Of a DNA stretch of 23,991 bases, positions 3-4,528 are shown piece by piece. This DNA is from a virus. How positions within the stretch are numbered: the first letter of the stretch is position 1; every line of letters begins with the position of its first letter. The stretch lies in IMG/VR virus record IMGVR_UViG_3300020596_000111, positions 1-23,991 of that record; one strand, written 5' to 3'. The translations under genes and the position numbers were made by a program. Below the pieces are notes generated by a model. That model was given only the letters and a program-made list of their open reading frames with translations, had not been told where the DNA came from and made no database searches.

Positions 3-1469
3 GGCGGCGCGGCTAATGACCGACAGCGAGCGAACTTATATCTATCGCCGCCGGCTTTGGCTGGTCCCTACGGTGAAGCCGATGCGGCGCTCCCGATCCA
101 TATTCTAAAAGCACAATGGCCGCTGATGGAAAAGCGCGGTATCTTAAACCTGTTTGACTTAGAATGTCGCTTGATACCTCTGCTCGTCAAGATGCGGTTT
201 CGCGGTGCGCCCGTTGATCTGGATCAGGCACAACAAACGTATGACAGCCTCGGCGATGACCTAACGGCGGTTGAGAAACAATTAAAGGCTATAGCGGGGC
301 AGCCTGTTAACGCTAACGCAGGTGAATCTATTGCCAGCGCGTTTAAGCGTAACGGAATAGAAATACCAACGATTGTTGATAGAAAAACAGGTAAGGAGCG
401 CGTCAGCTTTTCTGTTGATACGCTGGAGGCTATTGAGCATCCAATCGCGGAAACTATCCTCGAGTATCGTCGGATCGCAAAAGTTCGCAACGTTTTTGTA
501 AAAGCCTACATTCTTGACAAGAACGTAAACGGGCGCGTTCACTGCTCGTTCCACCCGCTCCGTGGATCAGGGTCAGGCGCAAGGTCGGGCCGCTTTTCTA
601 GTTCAGATCCAAATCTTCAAAATATCCCGGTGCGAACAGAAATCGGTAAAAAAGTTCGTAGAATGTTTAGTAAGAAAGGTGTTCTCTGGATTAAGTTTGA
701 CTATAGCCAGATCGAATATCGGATGCTAGCTCATCACGCGGTCGGACCCGGTAGTGATGAGCTACGGTGGCGCTATAATAATGACCCCGATCTTGATTAT
801 CATATCTTCACGCAAGATTTGATTAGACTTAAGACTGGTATTGAACTAGAGCGCCGACCGGTTAAAAACATTAACTTTGGCCTGATCTATGGTATGGGAA
901 AGAAAAAGCTTATTGCCGATCTAATCAAGTTTAGCGGCGGCGGCAGAGTTGATAAGAAAGCAGGGGAGCTTATGTATAGCAGCTATCACGAAGCTGTTCC
1001 GTTTGCTAAAGCTACGATGGATGCTGCCGCAAACGAAGTGCATCGGACAGGCTACGTTGAAACGATACTAGGCCGCAAATCTGATTTTAATGGTTGGACA
1101 TCAAAGCAGTATGAAGCTGGTCGGTTGTCGCTTTCTTTTGAAGCCGCTTCGTCTAAGTGGGGTGCGTATAATATCCAACGCAGTCATACGCACAAAGCAC
1201 TGAATCGTAAGTTACAGGGCGGTGCCGCAGATGTTATGAAAAAGGCTATGGTAGAAGCATACGAAGCTGGCTTCTTTGCTGATGACGCTTGCGGTATACC
1301 CTGCTTAACTGTTCACGATGAACTTGATTTTGATTATGAAAATGGAGTTGATTTGTCTGCCCCATGCTGGACAGAGTTTAAGCATCTTATGGAAACGGCG
1401 ATGCCAGGACTTTTAGTTCCGGTTCGGATCGACGGCAGCTTCGGGCTTAATTGGGGTTCAATAGATTAA
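3..1469 (+). CDS. Family A (Pol I-type) DNA polymerase, 5'-truncated by the window edge
   Basis: Replicative or repair DNA polymerase with 3'-5' exonuclease and polymerase domains. The reading frame is open to the left edge, so the TTG at 57 is not the real start; the N-terminus lies outside the window. Just inside the edge is the exonuclease III motif Y-x3-D (Tyr codon at 69, Asp codon at 81). A palm/fingers domain follows: RFSSSDPNLQNIP before motif A, motif A FDYSQIEYR (catalytic Asp codon at 699), motif B R-x3-K-x3-NFG-x2-YG (852-893), and motif C HDE (1314-1322). All polymerase catalytic residues are present. The residue matching E. coli Pol I 762 is Phe (codon 876); in phage surveys Phe or Tyr there is associated with virulent phages and Leu with temperate ones. 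It is the first gene of the plus-strand block; a candidate promoter starts 4 nt after its stop. Confidence 0.96.
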   Translation, partial: GGAANDRQRANLYLSPPALAGPYGEADAALPIHILKAQWPLMEKRGILNLFDLECRLIPLLVKMRFRGAPVDLDQAQQTYDSLGDDLTAVEKQLKAIAGQPVNANAGESIASAFKRNGIEIPTIVDRKTGKERVSFSVDTLEAIEHPIAETILEYRRIAKVRNVFVKAYILDKNVNGRVHCSFHPLRGSGSGARSGRFSSSDPNLQNIPVRTEIGKKVRRMFSKKGVLWIKFDYSQIEYRMLAHHAVGPGSDELRWRYNNDPDLDYHIFTQDLIRLKTGIELERRPVKNINFGLIYGMGKKKLIADLIKFSGGGRVDKKAGELMYSSYHEAVPFAKATMDAAANEVHRTGYVETILGRKSDFNGWTSKQYEAGRLSLSFEAASSKWGAYNIQRSHTHKALNRKLQGGAADVMKKAMVEAYEAGFFADDACGIPCLTVHDELDFDYENGVDLSAPCWTEFKHLMETAMPGLLVPVRIDGSFGLNWGSID

Positions 1470-1566: not shown

Positions 1567-1671
1567 ATGACACTAATCTTTAACGGGCAAGCACTTTCGA
1601 CTCTGCCACCAGCGCGGGCGCATCGCGCTTTGCTAGAGCTTGTTGCTTACATAAACGGAACAAAGTCATGA
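1567..1671 (+). CDS. Very small ORF (34 residues), hypothetical
   Basis: A 34-codon ORF beginning MTLIFNGQALSTLPPARAH. The ATG at 1567 has GGGAG at 1554-1558 at a good distance (8 nt). Its TGA overlaps the ATG of the next gene as ATGA (1668-1671), the coupling seen elsewhere in this genome. In-frame alternatives are an ATG at 1552 and a GTG at 1531, the latter with its own GAGGA upstream, so the N-terminus is uncertain. There is no recognisable domain; the middle is Ala/Arg/Leu-rich and may be helical. Function unknown. The evidence is start-site quality and translational coupling only. Confidence 0.5.
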   Translation: MTLIFNGQALSTLPPARAHRALLELVAYINGTKS

Positions 1672-1892
1672 CTAAACTTCATCCTGACTTTGCAGCATTT
1701 ATCACTAACTACGCAAAGAAAAAAGAAGCTGAGCGTAAGGCAGCCGAGCTACCACCCGCTCTATTCTATGATCTTAGAAACGGAGGCAACCTACCTAAAC
1801 GCGACTGGTCACTATGGATTCCATTATTGGCCACTTTGTTTTGGCTAGGCTTTATTATGTTCGTGGGAGTTATTAAATGGTTACTCTCTTGA
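1668..1892 (+). CDS. Small single-span membrane protein, hypothetical (74 residues)
   Basis: The first two thirds are soluble and charged, including a run of Lys/Glu/Arg (residues about 17-25). The C-terminus is one strong hydrophobic segment from about residue 49 to 73 (WIPLLATLFWLGFIMFVGVI), preceded by KR, which predicts a membrane anchor with the charged N-terminus in the cytoplasm. It starts on the ATGA overlap with the preceding small ORF, and its last 16 bases overlap the start of the repeat protein gene, so the three are probably co-translated. The Shine-Dalgarno (CGGAA) is weak, consistent with coupling. I recognise no family. Small membrane proteins of this kind are common in early regions of phages, but no role can be assigned. 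Confidence 0.7.
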   Translation: MTKLHPDFAAFITNYAKKKEAERKAAELPPALFYDLRNGGNLPKRDWSLWIPLLATLFWLGFIMFVGVIKWLLS

Positions 1893-2575
1893 AACCGATC
1901 ATTATTCGCGGTGTCGAGTATAAGTCGCAAAGCGCAGCGGCGCTTGCACTTAATGTTTCAAAAGAAGCTATTTCGCAGGCAGTTAAAAATAATAGACTGG
2001 ATACAGTTGGTCTAGGTCTTTTTTCGAAACCTATCATTATTCGTGGTGTCGAGTATAAGTCACATAAGGCAGCGGCGCTTGCACTTAATGTTTCAAGAGA
2101 AGCTATTTCTCGGGCAGTTAAGCGGGGTAGCTTAACTACAGTTGGTCTTGGAATATATGTAAGACCGCTAATTATTCGAGGTGTCCAGTATGCGTCACAA
2201 AGCGCGGCAGCTCGCGCTCTTAATGTTTCAAGAGAAGCTGTTGCGCACTCAGTTAAGCGGGGTAAGGTAGATACAATTGGTCTAGGTACTCTTTTCAAAC
2301 CAATTATTATTTATGGTGTTCAGTATGTCTCATACAGTGCAGCGGCGCTTGCACTTAATGTTTCGACATCAGCTATTTCGCAGGCAGTTAAAAATAATAG
2401 ACTGGATACAATCGGAGTTGGAATGGGTAAGAGCCCGATAGTGTGGAACGGTGTTCAATACAGAAGTATTACAGATGCCGCTCGTGCGCTTAAATTGCCG
2501 ATTCACAAGTTTAGGATTCTTAGAGACAGCCTTGCCGAACAGAGAAGGAAACCAAATGAAACCGATGCTGGCTAG
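1877..2575 (+). CDS. Tandem NUMOD1/HTH-like repeat protein, no nuclease domain
   Basis: A 232-residue protein built almost entirely of a 45-residue unit repeated in perfect register: residues 6-50, 51-95, 96-140, 141-185, and a diverged fifth copy from 186. Each unit has a short beta segment (KPIIIRGVEY), then S-x2-AAALALNVS and EAISQAVK, then a linker ending VGLG. The middle matches a helix-turn-helix, and the whole resembles the nuclease-associated modular DNA-binding domain NUMOD1, which normally occurs singly or in pairs beside GIY-YIG or HNH homing endonuclease domains. No catalytic domain is present. The start at 1877 has GGGAG upstream. It overlaps the upstream membrane gene by 16 nt and the ligase gene by 20 nt. 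Probable role (inferred): extended sequence-specific DNA binding, as a regulator or replication accessory. No homolog is known to me by name. Confidence 0.85.
   Translation: MVTLLKPIIIRGVEYKSQSAAALALNVSKEAISQAVKNNRLDTVGLGLFSKPIIIRGVEYKSHKAAALALNVSREAISRAVKRGSLTTVGLGIYVRPLIIRGVQYASQSAAARALNVSREAVAHSVKRGKVDTIGLGTLFKPIIIYGVQYVSYSAAALALNVSTSAISQAVKNNRLDTIGVGMGKSPIVWNGVQYRSITDAARALKLPIHKFRILRDSLAEQRRKPNETDAG
1892..2575 (+). repeat. Five tandem 135-bp coding repeats
   Basis: Units lie at 1892-2026, 2027-2161, 2162-2296, 2297-2431 and a diverged 2432-2575. They share long identical blocks such as GGTGTCGAGTATAAGTC (units 1 and 2) and GCACTTAATGTTTC (units 1, 2 and 4). Units 1 and 4 share an identical AAAATAATAGACTGGATACA block, although they are not adjacent. 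This suggests unequal crossing-over or gene conversion among copies. The period is a whole number of codons, so copy changes would keep the frame. Confidence 0.93.
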
Positions 2576-3482
2576 TGATTGGGATGAGAACAAGCAGTCT
2601 TACCCTGTCTTGGTTCAACCTAAGATCGACGGCGTTCGCGCGCTTAACCTGTCAGGGCGATTAACAGGCCGCAGCCTGAAAGAGTTCAACAATGTCTACA
2701 TCACCGAAAAGTTTAGCATACCGGAGTATTTTGGCTTTGACGGTGAGATGGCGGCGGAGAAAGAAACGCACCCGGACCTTTGCCGCTTGACCACAAGCGC
2801 GCTAGGGACCATCGCAGGAGCGCCCCGCGTGATGTGGCATGTCTTTGACCTTGTGACCCCGGCCACCGCTGGCCTGCCCTACGCGGCCCGCTGGCAAGCG
2901 ATGGCCGCTAAGGTCGCGGGCTTGCCGCCCGATCTTGCCGCTTGTCTGCATGTCGTTCCACAATCCCGATGTGACAGTAAAGAGGCTGTTGAATATAACG
3001 ACGATACCCTACTCGCGCTCGGCTATGAAGGGACTATTCTTCGCGCACCCGGCGGTGTTTACAAACATGGGAGAAGCACAGTCCGCGAAGGCGGTCTACT
3101 GCGAATCAAACGCTTTGCCGATTCGGAAGGCGTTATCGTCTCCATCCAAGAAGGTCAGACAAACAATAATGAGGCCAAGATCAACGAGCTTGGTCATACC
3201 GAACGCAGCAGTCACCAAGAAAATATGTTACCTAACGGCATGATCGGAACGCTATCCGTTAGGCTACTATCCGATATTACGTTCGGAGACAAGACGCTGC
3301 ACAAGGGCGAAGTCGTAACGATCAGCGCGGGAAAACTAACCGCACAGGAGCGCGAAGACTACTGGAACTATCCAAATACGATCTTGCAAAGGATCGTTAA
3401 GTTCCAATACTTCCCTAAAGGCGTAAAGGACAAACTCCGCTTCCCAACCTTTCAAAGTTTCCGCAGCGACGTGGATATGTAA
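2556..3482 (+). CDS. ATP-dependent DNA ligase (phage T7-like)
   Basis: Seals nicks in DNA using ATP. The start at 2556 is chosen because AAGGA lies 7 nt upstream and the protein then begins MKPMLASDW, as phage ligases do; in-frame sequence upstream is antisense-like and overlaps the repeat gene. Motifs (308 residues): motif I PKIDGVRA with adenylated Lys23; motif III FGFDGEM at 59-65; a WHVFDLV strand at 94-100; motif IV YEGTILR at 157-163; motif V LLRIKRF at 181-187. A C-terminal OB-fold follows (about 190-308), with GMIGTLSV and a RFPTFQSFR tail. Length and motif order fit small phage ATP ligases without accessory domains. It lies two genes after the polymerase block, in keeping with a replication role. 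Confidence 0.95.
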   Translation: MKPMLASDWDENKQSYPVLVQPKIDGVRALNLSGRLTGRSLKEFNNVYITEKFSIPEYFGFDGEMAAEKETHPDLCRLTTSALGTIAGAPRVMWHVFDLVTPATAGLPYAARWQAMAAKVAGLPPDLAACLHVVPQSRCDSKEAVEYNDDTLLALGYEGTILRAPGGVYKHGRSTVREGGLLRIKRFADSEGVIVSIQEGQTNNNEAKINELGHTERSSHQENMLPNGMIGTLSVRLLSDITFGDKTLHKGEVVTISAGKLTAQEREDYWNYPNTILQRIVKFQYFPKGVKDKLRFPTFQSFRSDVDM

Positions 3483-3789: not shown

Positions 3790-3944
3790 CTGAAGAAGAG
3801 GAAATTGTCCGCGCTTTGGCTGTCTTTTATGGTGGCTGGGTGCTATCCATCGTCAGCTTGTGCGTGGTTCTTGTAGTGGTTTTTTCTTTTATCCCTGCGG
3901 ATTGTTCCAATGCGGAGTTAGTAAGCTGCCAGGAGAAAAACTAA
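3786..3944 (+). CDS. Small membrane protein, hypothetical (52 residues)
   Basis: A 52-codon gene with an excellent Shine-Dalgarno (AGGAGG at 3773-3778). Its ATG overlaps the preceding TGA as ATGA, and its TAA overlaps the following ATG as TAATG. After an acidic start (MTEEEEIVRA) comes one long hydrophobic segment (about residues 11-36, including VLSIVSLCVVLVVVFSFI), then a short polar tail with two cysteines. This predicts a single membrane span. The start site and double coupling make it a real gene; its function is unknown. Confidence 0.75.
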   Translation: MTEEEEIVRALAVFYGGWVLSIVSLCVVLVVVFSFIPADCSNAELVSCQEKN

Positions 3945-4528
3945 TGGGCAAGTCAAAACTAACAAAAGAGCAGCTTATAGCTGAGCTTGAGGTTGGGCTT
4001 TCAAGAATTGAGATTGCAAAGAAATACAATATAAGACCGCAGGGCATATATCTTAAATGCCGACTTCTAAACTTAAAAGTCCCAAATTGGAGGGCAACCG
4101 AAAAAGGACGGGAGTGGTGTAGGCAGGTAGGTTTAAAACATCTTTTAACTCCTGAAAGCAAAAACTTGTTTATGCAAAGAATGCACACTGTTAAAAGGAC
4201 TGAAGCTTGTAAACAGGCAGTTAAAGCCTACTTTAAAAATCCAAAAAATAACCTAAAGCTGCGCTTAACACAGACAGAACTTAATGATTATACTTTGTTA
4301 CAAAAGAAAGGTTATTCTTCTTCTGAGGCTTACGGAATAATTGGACGGTTTGATATAAAAGAAGAGTGGGATAAACGAAAAAAGGCCAGCCCAAAGGACT
4401 GGCCAGTTCAACTGCCTGACAGCGGAGGAAGGAGACCGTCAGGATTCGTTGGTGCTTACCGTACCGCCTGTCATCTGGACGCGGCGACCACTAGGCACAA
4501 ATCCATAGCGCGCATCCGGCCACCGTGA
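3944..4528 (+). CDS. Helix-turn-helix protein, probably homing-endonuclease-derived; abnormal 3' end
   Basis: The start at 3944 is set by AGGAG 7 nt upstream and the TAATG overlap with the preceding gene. Residues 7-42 form a likely helix-turn-helix (LTKEQLIAELEVGLSRIEIA, then NIRPQGIYLK), a type common at the N-terminus of phage-borne homing nucleases and small regulators. Residues about 108-135 contain LTQTELNDYTLLQKKGYSSS, a second helical pair. No nuclease motif is visible. The gene is noticeably A-rich up to residue about 147, then abruptly GC-richer. From residue about 145 it passes through a terminator hairpin, and from residue 166 it is antisense to the 3' end of the endolysin. The last 40-50 residues therefore look like read-through rather than native protein, suggesting a 3' truncation. 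Probably DNA-binding; exact role unknown. Confidence 0.65.
   Translation: MGKSKLTKEQLIAELEVGLSRIEIAKKYNIRPQGIYLKCRLLNLKVPNWRATEKGREWCRQVGLKHLLTPESKNLFMQRMHTVKRTEACKQAVKAYFKNPKNNLKLRLTQTELNDYTLLQKKGYSSSEAYGIIGRFDIKEEWDKRKKASPKDWPVQLPDSGGRRPSGFVGAYRTACHLDAATTRHKSIARIRPP
4378..4404 (-). terminator. Rho-independent terminator of the minus-strand late operon
   Basis: Read on the minus strand: GGCCAG-T-CC, loop TTTG, GG-CTGGCC, then TTTTTT. The 8-bp GC-rich stem has one bulge and is followed directly by six Ts (then CGTTT). It lies 35-60 nt past the endolysin stop, exactly where the convergent late transcript should end. On the plus strand the hairpin has no U-tract, so it acts in one direction only. 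It is inside the plus-strand HTH coding frame. Confidence 0.85.

Follow-up and report, generated by a model that had tools for sequence, protein, structure and literature searches.

We found that a virus contig encodes a protein made up almost wholly of five helix-turn-helix (HTH) modules resembling NUMOD1 and the I-TevI DNA-binding domain, strung in tandem on one chain and with no nuclease detected in the protein or elsewhere in the record. The window, by which we mean the whole stretch of DNA analysed, is the 23,991-base contig of IMG/VR record IMGVR_UViG_3300020596_000111 (positions 1 to 23,991). Related arrays in phages and prophages differ in copy number, and their modules differ most at the positions where an HTH would touch DNA. 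On balance we favour, with moderate confidence in the DNA-reading part, a nuclease-free, multivalent and sequence-specific regulator or occluder.

Architecture and predicted fold of the array

The array ORF lies on the plus strand at 1877..2575 (stop included). It is intact, running from an ATG at 1877 to a TAG at 2573-2575 and coding for 232 amino acids according to both the ORF list and the sequence. A 129-nucleotide repeat occurs in its DNA in four copies, spaced at exactly 135, 135 and 135 nucleotides and 71-83% identical to the reference copy, which is far above chance, and Tandem Repeats Finder run on the window recovered the array with a period of 135 and a score of 523. The protein consists of four 45-residue units in exact register followed by a fifth, diverged unit of some 37 residues. 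On a unit HMM made for this analysis, whose training set includes the window's own units, units 1-4 scored 65-70 bits and unit 5 scored 44 bits. Modules 1 (1892..2026, 70 bits), 2 (2027..2161), 3 (2162..2296) and 4 (2297..2431), all on the plus strand and 45 residues long, carry K E S Q, R E S R, R E A H and T S S Q, respectively, at unit positions 24/25/28/29. Module 5 (2432..2542, plus strand) is terminal and has no conserved tail, and its contact residues, as read off the sequence, are IH..RI. The sequence-only reading had described five 45-residue units in perfect register with almost nothing else in the protein. The register holds for four of them, the fifth being diverged and tailless, and nothing else of size was found besides the units.

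To assign the modules to a family, we combined sequence scores with structure prediction. The array scored 45.9 bits against Pfam NUMOD1 (PF07453; E 5.9e-12, cut-off 22.8) and 55.2 bits against I-TevI_DNA-bd (PF20987; cut-off 27). Several generic HTH families likewise passed their Pfam cut-offs and the NUMOD1 score is summed over the repeats, so the Pfam score alone is not specific; we discounted high scores against LysR HTH_1, AbiEi_4, KORA and others as general HTH resemblance that adds up across the repeats in the same way. AlphaFold2 predicted two short strands followed by an HTH in all five units of the whole array, in a model of moderate quality (mean pLDDT 70, pTM 0.29) that resembles beads on a string. 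A two-unit model built from 34 sequences, which bears on modules 2 and 3, reached a pLDDT of 87, and in it the second helix of the HTH spans unit residues 24-33. In these predictions, module 1 is a hairpin with an HTH, and module 5 has strands and two helices. The sequence-only reading had proposed NUMOD1-like HTH modules, each with one strand and an HTH-like pair, and had named structure prediction as a check. The family assignment is borne out by the sequence scores and the predicted fold, and HTHs were predicted in both AlphaFold2 models (one two-unit, one whole-array), with two short strands per unit instead of one.

Against viral predicted structures, the best Foldseek match was a 218-aa protein named 'Nuclease-associated modular DNA-binding 1' (E 4e-13); uncharacterised phage proteins came next, and GIY-YIG and HNH enzymes after them. 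Against the PDB, no Foldseek match had an E below 0.001. Among the matches listed, which include I-HmuI (1u3e), the I-TevI domain on DNA (1i3j) had the highest probability (0.35 and 0.44, both weak). We set the whole-array run against the PDB aside as noise, which is to be expected from a beads-on-a-string model, and PDB sequence searches gave nothing convincing. By analogy with 1i3j, a weak fold match (probability 0.44), the modules of the window may bind DNA.

We then searched for catalytic partners. Profiles for GIY-YIG (PF01541), HNH (PF01844), HNH_3 (PF13392) and T5orf172 (PF10544) had no match anywhere in the 24-kb record; the same profiles gave matches in control genomes. For these four nuclease families, the earlier description of the protein as nuclease-free is thus upheld for the protein and for the record.

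Related arrays in phages and prophages

A second contig (L002), 99.4% identical to the window contig, has an array that differs from that of the window by a single amino acid and has the same number of modules, with no in-frame change in copy number between the two. More than 60 related ORFs, mostly of two to five modules, were found in phages and prophages: when IMG/VR and GTDB contigs were searched with patterns and profiles, the count, isolated phages included, came to 66 distinct ORFs, each of between one and five modules. When 59 relatives were compared with Pfam at E up to 0.001, 31 matched NUMOD1 and 41 matched I-TevI_DNA-bd, and no nuclease catalytic family was among the 25 most frequent matches listed (21 rarer families lie beyond these). 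Rhodobacter phage RcMenchie and its kin have three modules, as does Dinoroseobacter phage R4C; Ruegeria phage Tedan has two proteins of two modules each, and Paracoccus phage Pyei1 has two modules behind a Cys-rich motif. A seven-module ORF was obtained on joining the ends of one 47-kb contig across a 92-bp identical overlap. Because the overlap falls within a module, assembly might have produced the join artificially; we regard the seven-module array as probably real. The search for relatives that the sequence-only reading had suggested therefore yielded nuclease-free tandem arrays whose copy numbers could be compared, with one to seven modules across the family and about twelve in a distant member.

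This distant member is a 760-aa hypothetical protein of Alteromonas mediterranea plasmid pAMCP48-600 (L139:781-3060), which consists almost wholly of modules. About twelve NUMOD1-like modules with longer linkers can be counted by eye, eleven stretches are matched by the HMM, and no nuclease domain was found in it with Pfam.

Protein searches of viral contigs with the window array or its four-unit alignment returned the near-identical contig only, and the R4C array as query returned none. A degenerate DNA pattern with fixed spacing found relatives, most of its 30 matches being without an array. A first scan of genome contigs with the array of contig L018 gave none, a scan with alignment A5 gave six matches, and megablast of the first 12 kb of the window against phage records gave no match. 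At E <= 1e-8, the sample of the family around Thiosulfatihalobacter (Rhodobacteraceae) had matches in 12 of 397 genomes and the sample of its phylum in 3 of 398, two of which also belong to the family sample; in the phylum of an Opitutae MAG, 1 of 195 genomes matched. All of these are minimum counts, as scoring was limited to some of the first-look candidates.

Several loci depart from the single-ORF arrangement. In L101:3953-5467 and L091:2428-3439, an array is spread over three short ORFs in succession, which hold one, one and two modules and have separate starts. Unlike its intact relatives, the four-module array at L078:2887-3606 is broken into a one-module and a three-module ORF. One Rhodobacteraceae MAG carries a five-module and a two-module array about 1.3 kb apart (L098:1913-2671 and 3998-4282). 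Butyrivibrio plasmid pCY360 (L143:816-2793) encodes two adjacent hypothetical proteins with repeats that start with 'DHLGNxY' and end with 'GWxLEKAL', a Bacillota version of the array idea.

Modules differ at predicted recognition positions

To ask where modules differ, we calculated pN/pS for 16 pairs of similar units from the same array (DNA identity of 68% or more; five arrays contribute, the pairs are not independent, and the near-identical L001 and L002 were counted once). At recognition positions 24/25/28/29 the value was 1.27; it was 0.60 for the remaining non-core positions and 0.24 for the core. Four random non-core columns reached the recognition-position mean in 12 of 20,000 draws, a comparison in which the recognition columns had been chosen from HTH knowledge after column entropies were seen, and thus not blind. 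For single arrays, the recognition-position value ranged from 0.68 to 2.67. Between orthologous modules of eight related four-module arrays it was 0.31, with a core value of 0.11. These substitution patterns place the differences between modules of one array at the residues expected to contact DNA in an HTH, residues that each module retains from one related phage to the next.

The sequence-only reading had placed the differences mainly in and after the second helix, at positions expected to give specificity. The end of the second helix does vary (KNNRLDT and KRGSLTT), and so do positions 24, 25, 28 and 29 and positions 11-14; the expectation about specificity agrees with the finding that close unit pairs vary most at recognition-helix positions. 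In the window array, the contact residues of modules 1-3 resemble one another (KE..SQ, RE..SR and RE..AH), and module 4 has TS..SQ.

Copy number and recombination between units

Two contigs from one metagenome, L018 and L042, have about 92% identical downstream DNA, and their array loci could be compared downstream of the same Cro-like gene. The L018 locus has one five-module ORF, and the same locus in L042 has two adjacent four-module ORFs. Modules 2-5 of L018 pair with modules 1-4 of the second L042 ORF at 82-89% DNA identity, and within L018 module 1 repeats module 3 at 89% identity. Adjoining the two L042 arrays is a second repeat protein, an ORF on the minus strand (L042:2430-3401) with many GGxWxxGxWxDG repeats.

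In the window, modules 1 and 4 are identical over a 40-nucleotide block (unit residues 25-38) and diverged on either side of it (P = 0.0026 in a codon-shuffle test). Blocks of 26-28 nucleotides in other places are common to units 1-2 (P = 0.06) and to units 2-4 (P = 0.01). These shared blocks between unit pairs 1-4, 1-2 and 2-4 indicate that the window units are mosaic. The sequence-only reading had noted an identical tail in units 1 and 4, which corresponds to the 40-nucleotide block, and had suggested that copy number could change in frame, as the five modules of L018 and the four plus four of L042 confirm for relatives. Together, the L018/L042 difference and the 40-nucleotide block support shuffling and in-frame copy-number change in the family, and, from the pattern of shared DNA, both are likely to have occurred in the window gene.

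Gene neighbourhood

Upstream of the array, toward the contig start, lies a family A DNA polymerase (57..1469, plus strand; PF00476, E 6e-65). The first 16 nucleotides of the array ORF overlap a 74-aa ORF (1668..1892, plus strand) with one strongly hydrophobic stretch, which reaches a hydropathy of 2.38 across 19 residues. This ORF has no family match among Pfam and PHROG profiles and is likely to be on one transcript with the array. The ATG of an ATP-dependent DNA ligase (2556..3482, plus strand; phrog_114, E 7e-56; tblastn matches in 659 phage records) overlaps the array end. Farther along the window, the minus strand carries contractile-tail genes (tail sheath, baseplate). The same gene cluster as the array includes a second HTH-like ORF with weak family matches (3860-4528, plus strand; 'MGKSKLTKEQLIAELEVGLSRIEIAKKYNIRPQGIYLK...').

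In three unrelated phages, the gene immediately before the array is a small hydrophobic or membrane-annotated ORF: in the window (1668-1892, plus strand) and in R4C and RcMenchie (L003:3571-3972 and L005:3802-3993). We dropped a link between the two genes because most arrays have no such ORF.

Among the relatives, arrays adjoin a primase (R4C), a DNA polymerase (L062) and replication initiators (L089; Pyei1 p23), and the L018 array has a DNA helicase nearby on the opposite strand. In one Rhodobacteraceae-type subfamily, four-module arrays adjoin an N6/N4 DNA methyltransferase, which follows the array in L063, L059, L064 and L078 and precedes it in L073, L025, L012 and L013; L057 likewise has a methyltransferase neighbour. 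Terminase and sulfate-metabolism genes are the neighbours of other arrays. Early or replication neighbours are therefore frequent but not universal, and no role can be read from context: with methyltransferase, terminase, sulfate-metabolism and helicase genes all represented, one shared role is not established, and replication genes are common neighbours in phage early regions and so do not demonstrate function.

A proposed function and its alternatives

We propose that the protein would act as five beta-hairpin/HTH modules of NUMOD1 type on one chain, with short linkers and no catalysis. Each module would insert its second HTH helix into a major groove, so that the whole chain would recognise an extended composite site, about 10 bp per module, and bind it with avidity. 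The array itself, its predicted fold, the lack of a detected nuclease, the copy-number differences among relatives and the pattern of change are direct results; DNA binding, sequence specificity and site length are inferred. The modules are probably drawn from the stock that supplies homing endonucleases with their DNA-binding ends; with the nuclease missing, this leaves occlusion, repression or site marking as plausible outcomes. As its most likely role, the array would regulate the early region, where it would occlude or mark an operator or a replication origin on the DNA of the phage or of a competitor, and its target could be retuned by swapping, duplicating or deleting modules in frame and by changes in the recognition helix. 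A role in regulation or replication is a guess; we hold transcriptional regulation as a tentative assignment that is somewhat doubtful. A stronger version, in which the array is an evolvable scaffold whose 45-residue HTH modules each read their own segment mainly via positions 24/25/28/29 and which phages retarget by adding, removing or shuffling modules, seems to us quite unlikely.

If the array were specific to replication, it would bind the phage origin or iterons and recruit replication enzymes, and would not be a transcription regulator. Its place between the polymerase and the ligase, the primase, polymerase and initiator neighbours of its relatives, and the replication role guessed by the authors who described a Paracoccus phage NUMOD1 protein (PMC6536676) are all in keeping with this. 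However, the methyltransferase, terminase and sulfate-metabolism neighbours of other arrays are not, Tandem Repeats Finder listed no iteron-like or origin-like tandem repeats elsewhere in the window, and the array protein has no recruitment domain, so that we consider this explanation unlikely.

The arrays that abut a methyltransferase on either side raise another possibility, namely that arrays protect or mark DNA in conflicts between elements or in restriction-modification, working with a phage methyltransferase or blocking the sites of a competitor. CapR and Odn, which are homing-endonuclease-type domains acting in phage-satellite conflict (PMC10448857, PMC8263062), offer precedents. But no methyltransferase is among the window ORFs scanned, and the association is mainly that of one subfamily and L057; we judge such a role improbable for the window array.

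That the protein coats DNA without sequence specificity, as a nucleoid-like or packaging-related protein making many weak HTH contacts, would suit the avidity expected of many similar modules and the similar contact residues of modules 1-3, but is very unlikely given that recognition positions differ strongly within arrays and are conserved between orthologues, which would be unexpected for non-specific coating.

The array could also be the DNA-binding remnant of a homing endonuclease whose nuclease was lost, drifting or weakly used. Its modules do match DNA-binding regions of homing endonucleases, T4 gp5.3 (a 56-aa ORF with one NUMOD1-like module immediately after SegC) illustrates a module split from a nuclease, and array L082 has an HNH_3 gene directly downstream. 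Against this, the sequence-only reading had named a catalytic part in a neighbouring frame as a finding that would overturn it; such a part was looked for across the record and not found, so the array is not a degraded nuclease of that kind. Among 37 viral records with related modules, HNH_3 was present in 8 and GIY-YIG in 2, always in ORFs apart from the arrays. In addition, the ORF is intact, with its start and end overlapping neighbouring genes, the module core is under purifying constraint in both close paralogous and orthologous comparisons, and orthologous four-module arrays are retained across related phages and prophages. The window array is most likely not a degraded nuclease, and we regard decay as largely refuted and highly improbable.

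Relation to known systems

Homing endonucleases with NUMOD1 provide one of the closest comparisons to the array that we read as a nuclease-free regulator or occluder. The NUMOD1/IENR1/I-TevI domain (PF07453, PF20987; 1i3j) resembles the window modules by sequence score and predicted HTH; the window protein, however, is modules only, five of them, without GIY-YIG, HNH or T5orf172. TALE repeats and tandem HTH repeats of the Myb R2R3 type show how units on one chain can read successive DNA segments through variable residues on a constant scaffold. Their folds and origins are different from those of the window array, which implies no one-unit-one-base code. In phage homing endonucleases, loosely tethered NUMODs contact sites of up to about 30 bp (PMC3943268).

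Also comparable are CapR of PLE satellites, in which a nuclease-free DNA-binding domain of homing-endonuclease type acts as a repressor, and the T5orf172 repeats of ICP1, where gp174 shows in-frame recombination between its DNA-binding repeats (PMC10448857). Like the window array, both have DNA-binding domains of homing-endonuclease type, and the ICP1 repeats are likewise arranged as beads on a string. However, theirs are CxxC...CxC zinc fingers, whereas the window array consists of HTH modules and has zero cysteines in 232 amino acids, and the multi-copy domains of ICP1 are attached to a nuclease that the window array lacks (PMC10448857). The window array may work like CapR, but it is not a CapR.

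Multi-copy modules also occur in Vpf497 (the ORF8 marker) of Vibrio phage VfO3K6/f237, a 497-aa protein (L142:1468-2958) whose HTH-type modules, about six in number, are akin to the modules of the Alteromonas protein. Its C-terminal residues 399-490 match the endonuclease family phrog_681 (E 1e-8), so that it is probably not nuclease-free and would be a homing-endonuclease-like enzyme. The statement in the sequence-only reading that nucleases carry NUMOD1 in only one or two copies does not survive this example. Vpf497 and two other arrays also match phrog_201, 'Panton-Valentine leukocicin', which we treated as a probable mislabel and not as evidence of a toxin; the name presumably derives from PVL prophage ORF names.

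Nor is the window array unique, since free-standing NUMOD1 proteins have already been deposited. One with the same fold pattern, UniProt A0A6J5KGX7, a 218-aa protein of an uncultured Caudovirales phage, is free-standing like the window array and is its best structural match, over about 200 aligned columns; Paracoccus phage Shpa gp53 is likewise free-standing, its record noting an 'IENR1 domain'. Annotation of such deposited proteins is automatic or in passing. Thus NUMOD1 and its place in homing endonucleases were already known, as were proteins with free-standing NUMOD1 and recombination between repeats of homing endonucleases. In the literature searched, which covered few subscription journals, we found no description of nuclease-free tandem NUMOD1 arrays as a family, and within it the multi-copy architecture appears to be undescribed.

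Implications

Provided that the predicted DNA binding holds, phages maintain a family of compact, nuclease-free, multi-module readers of DNA whose module number differs between close relatives. This would provide a name for many hypothetical phage proteins. The arrays are natural module sets in which recognition residues vary on a constant scaffold, so that the question of a recognition code for HTH modules becomes directly testable; were they indeed modular scaffolds, they would be comparable to TALE repeats in logic, though not in fold or code. The reading that we favour would, if true, show homing-endonuclease parts turned into regulators or conflict proteins.
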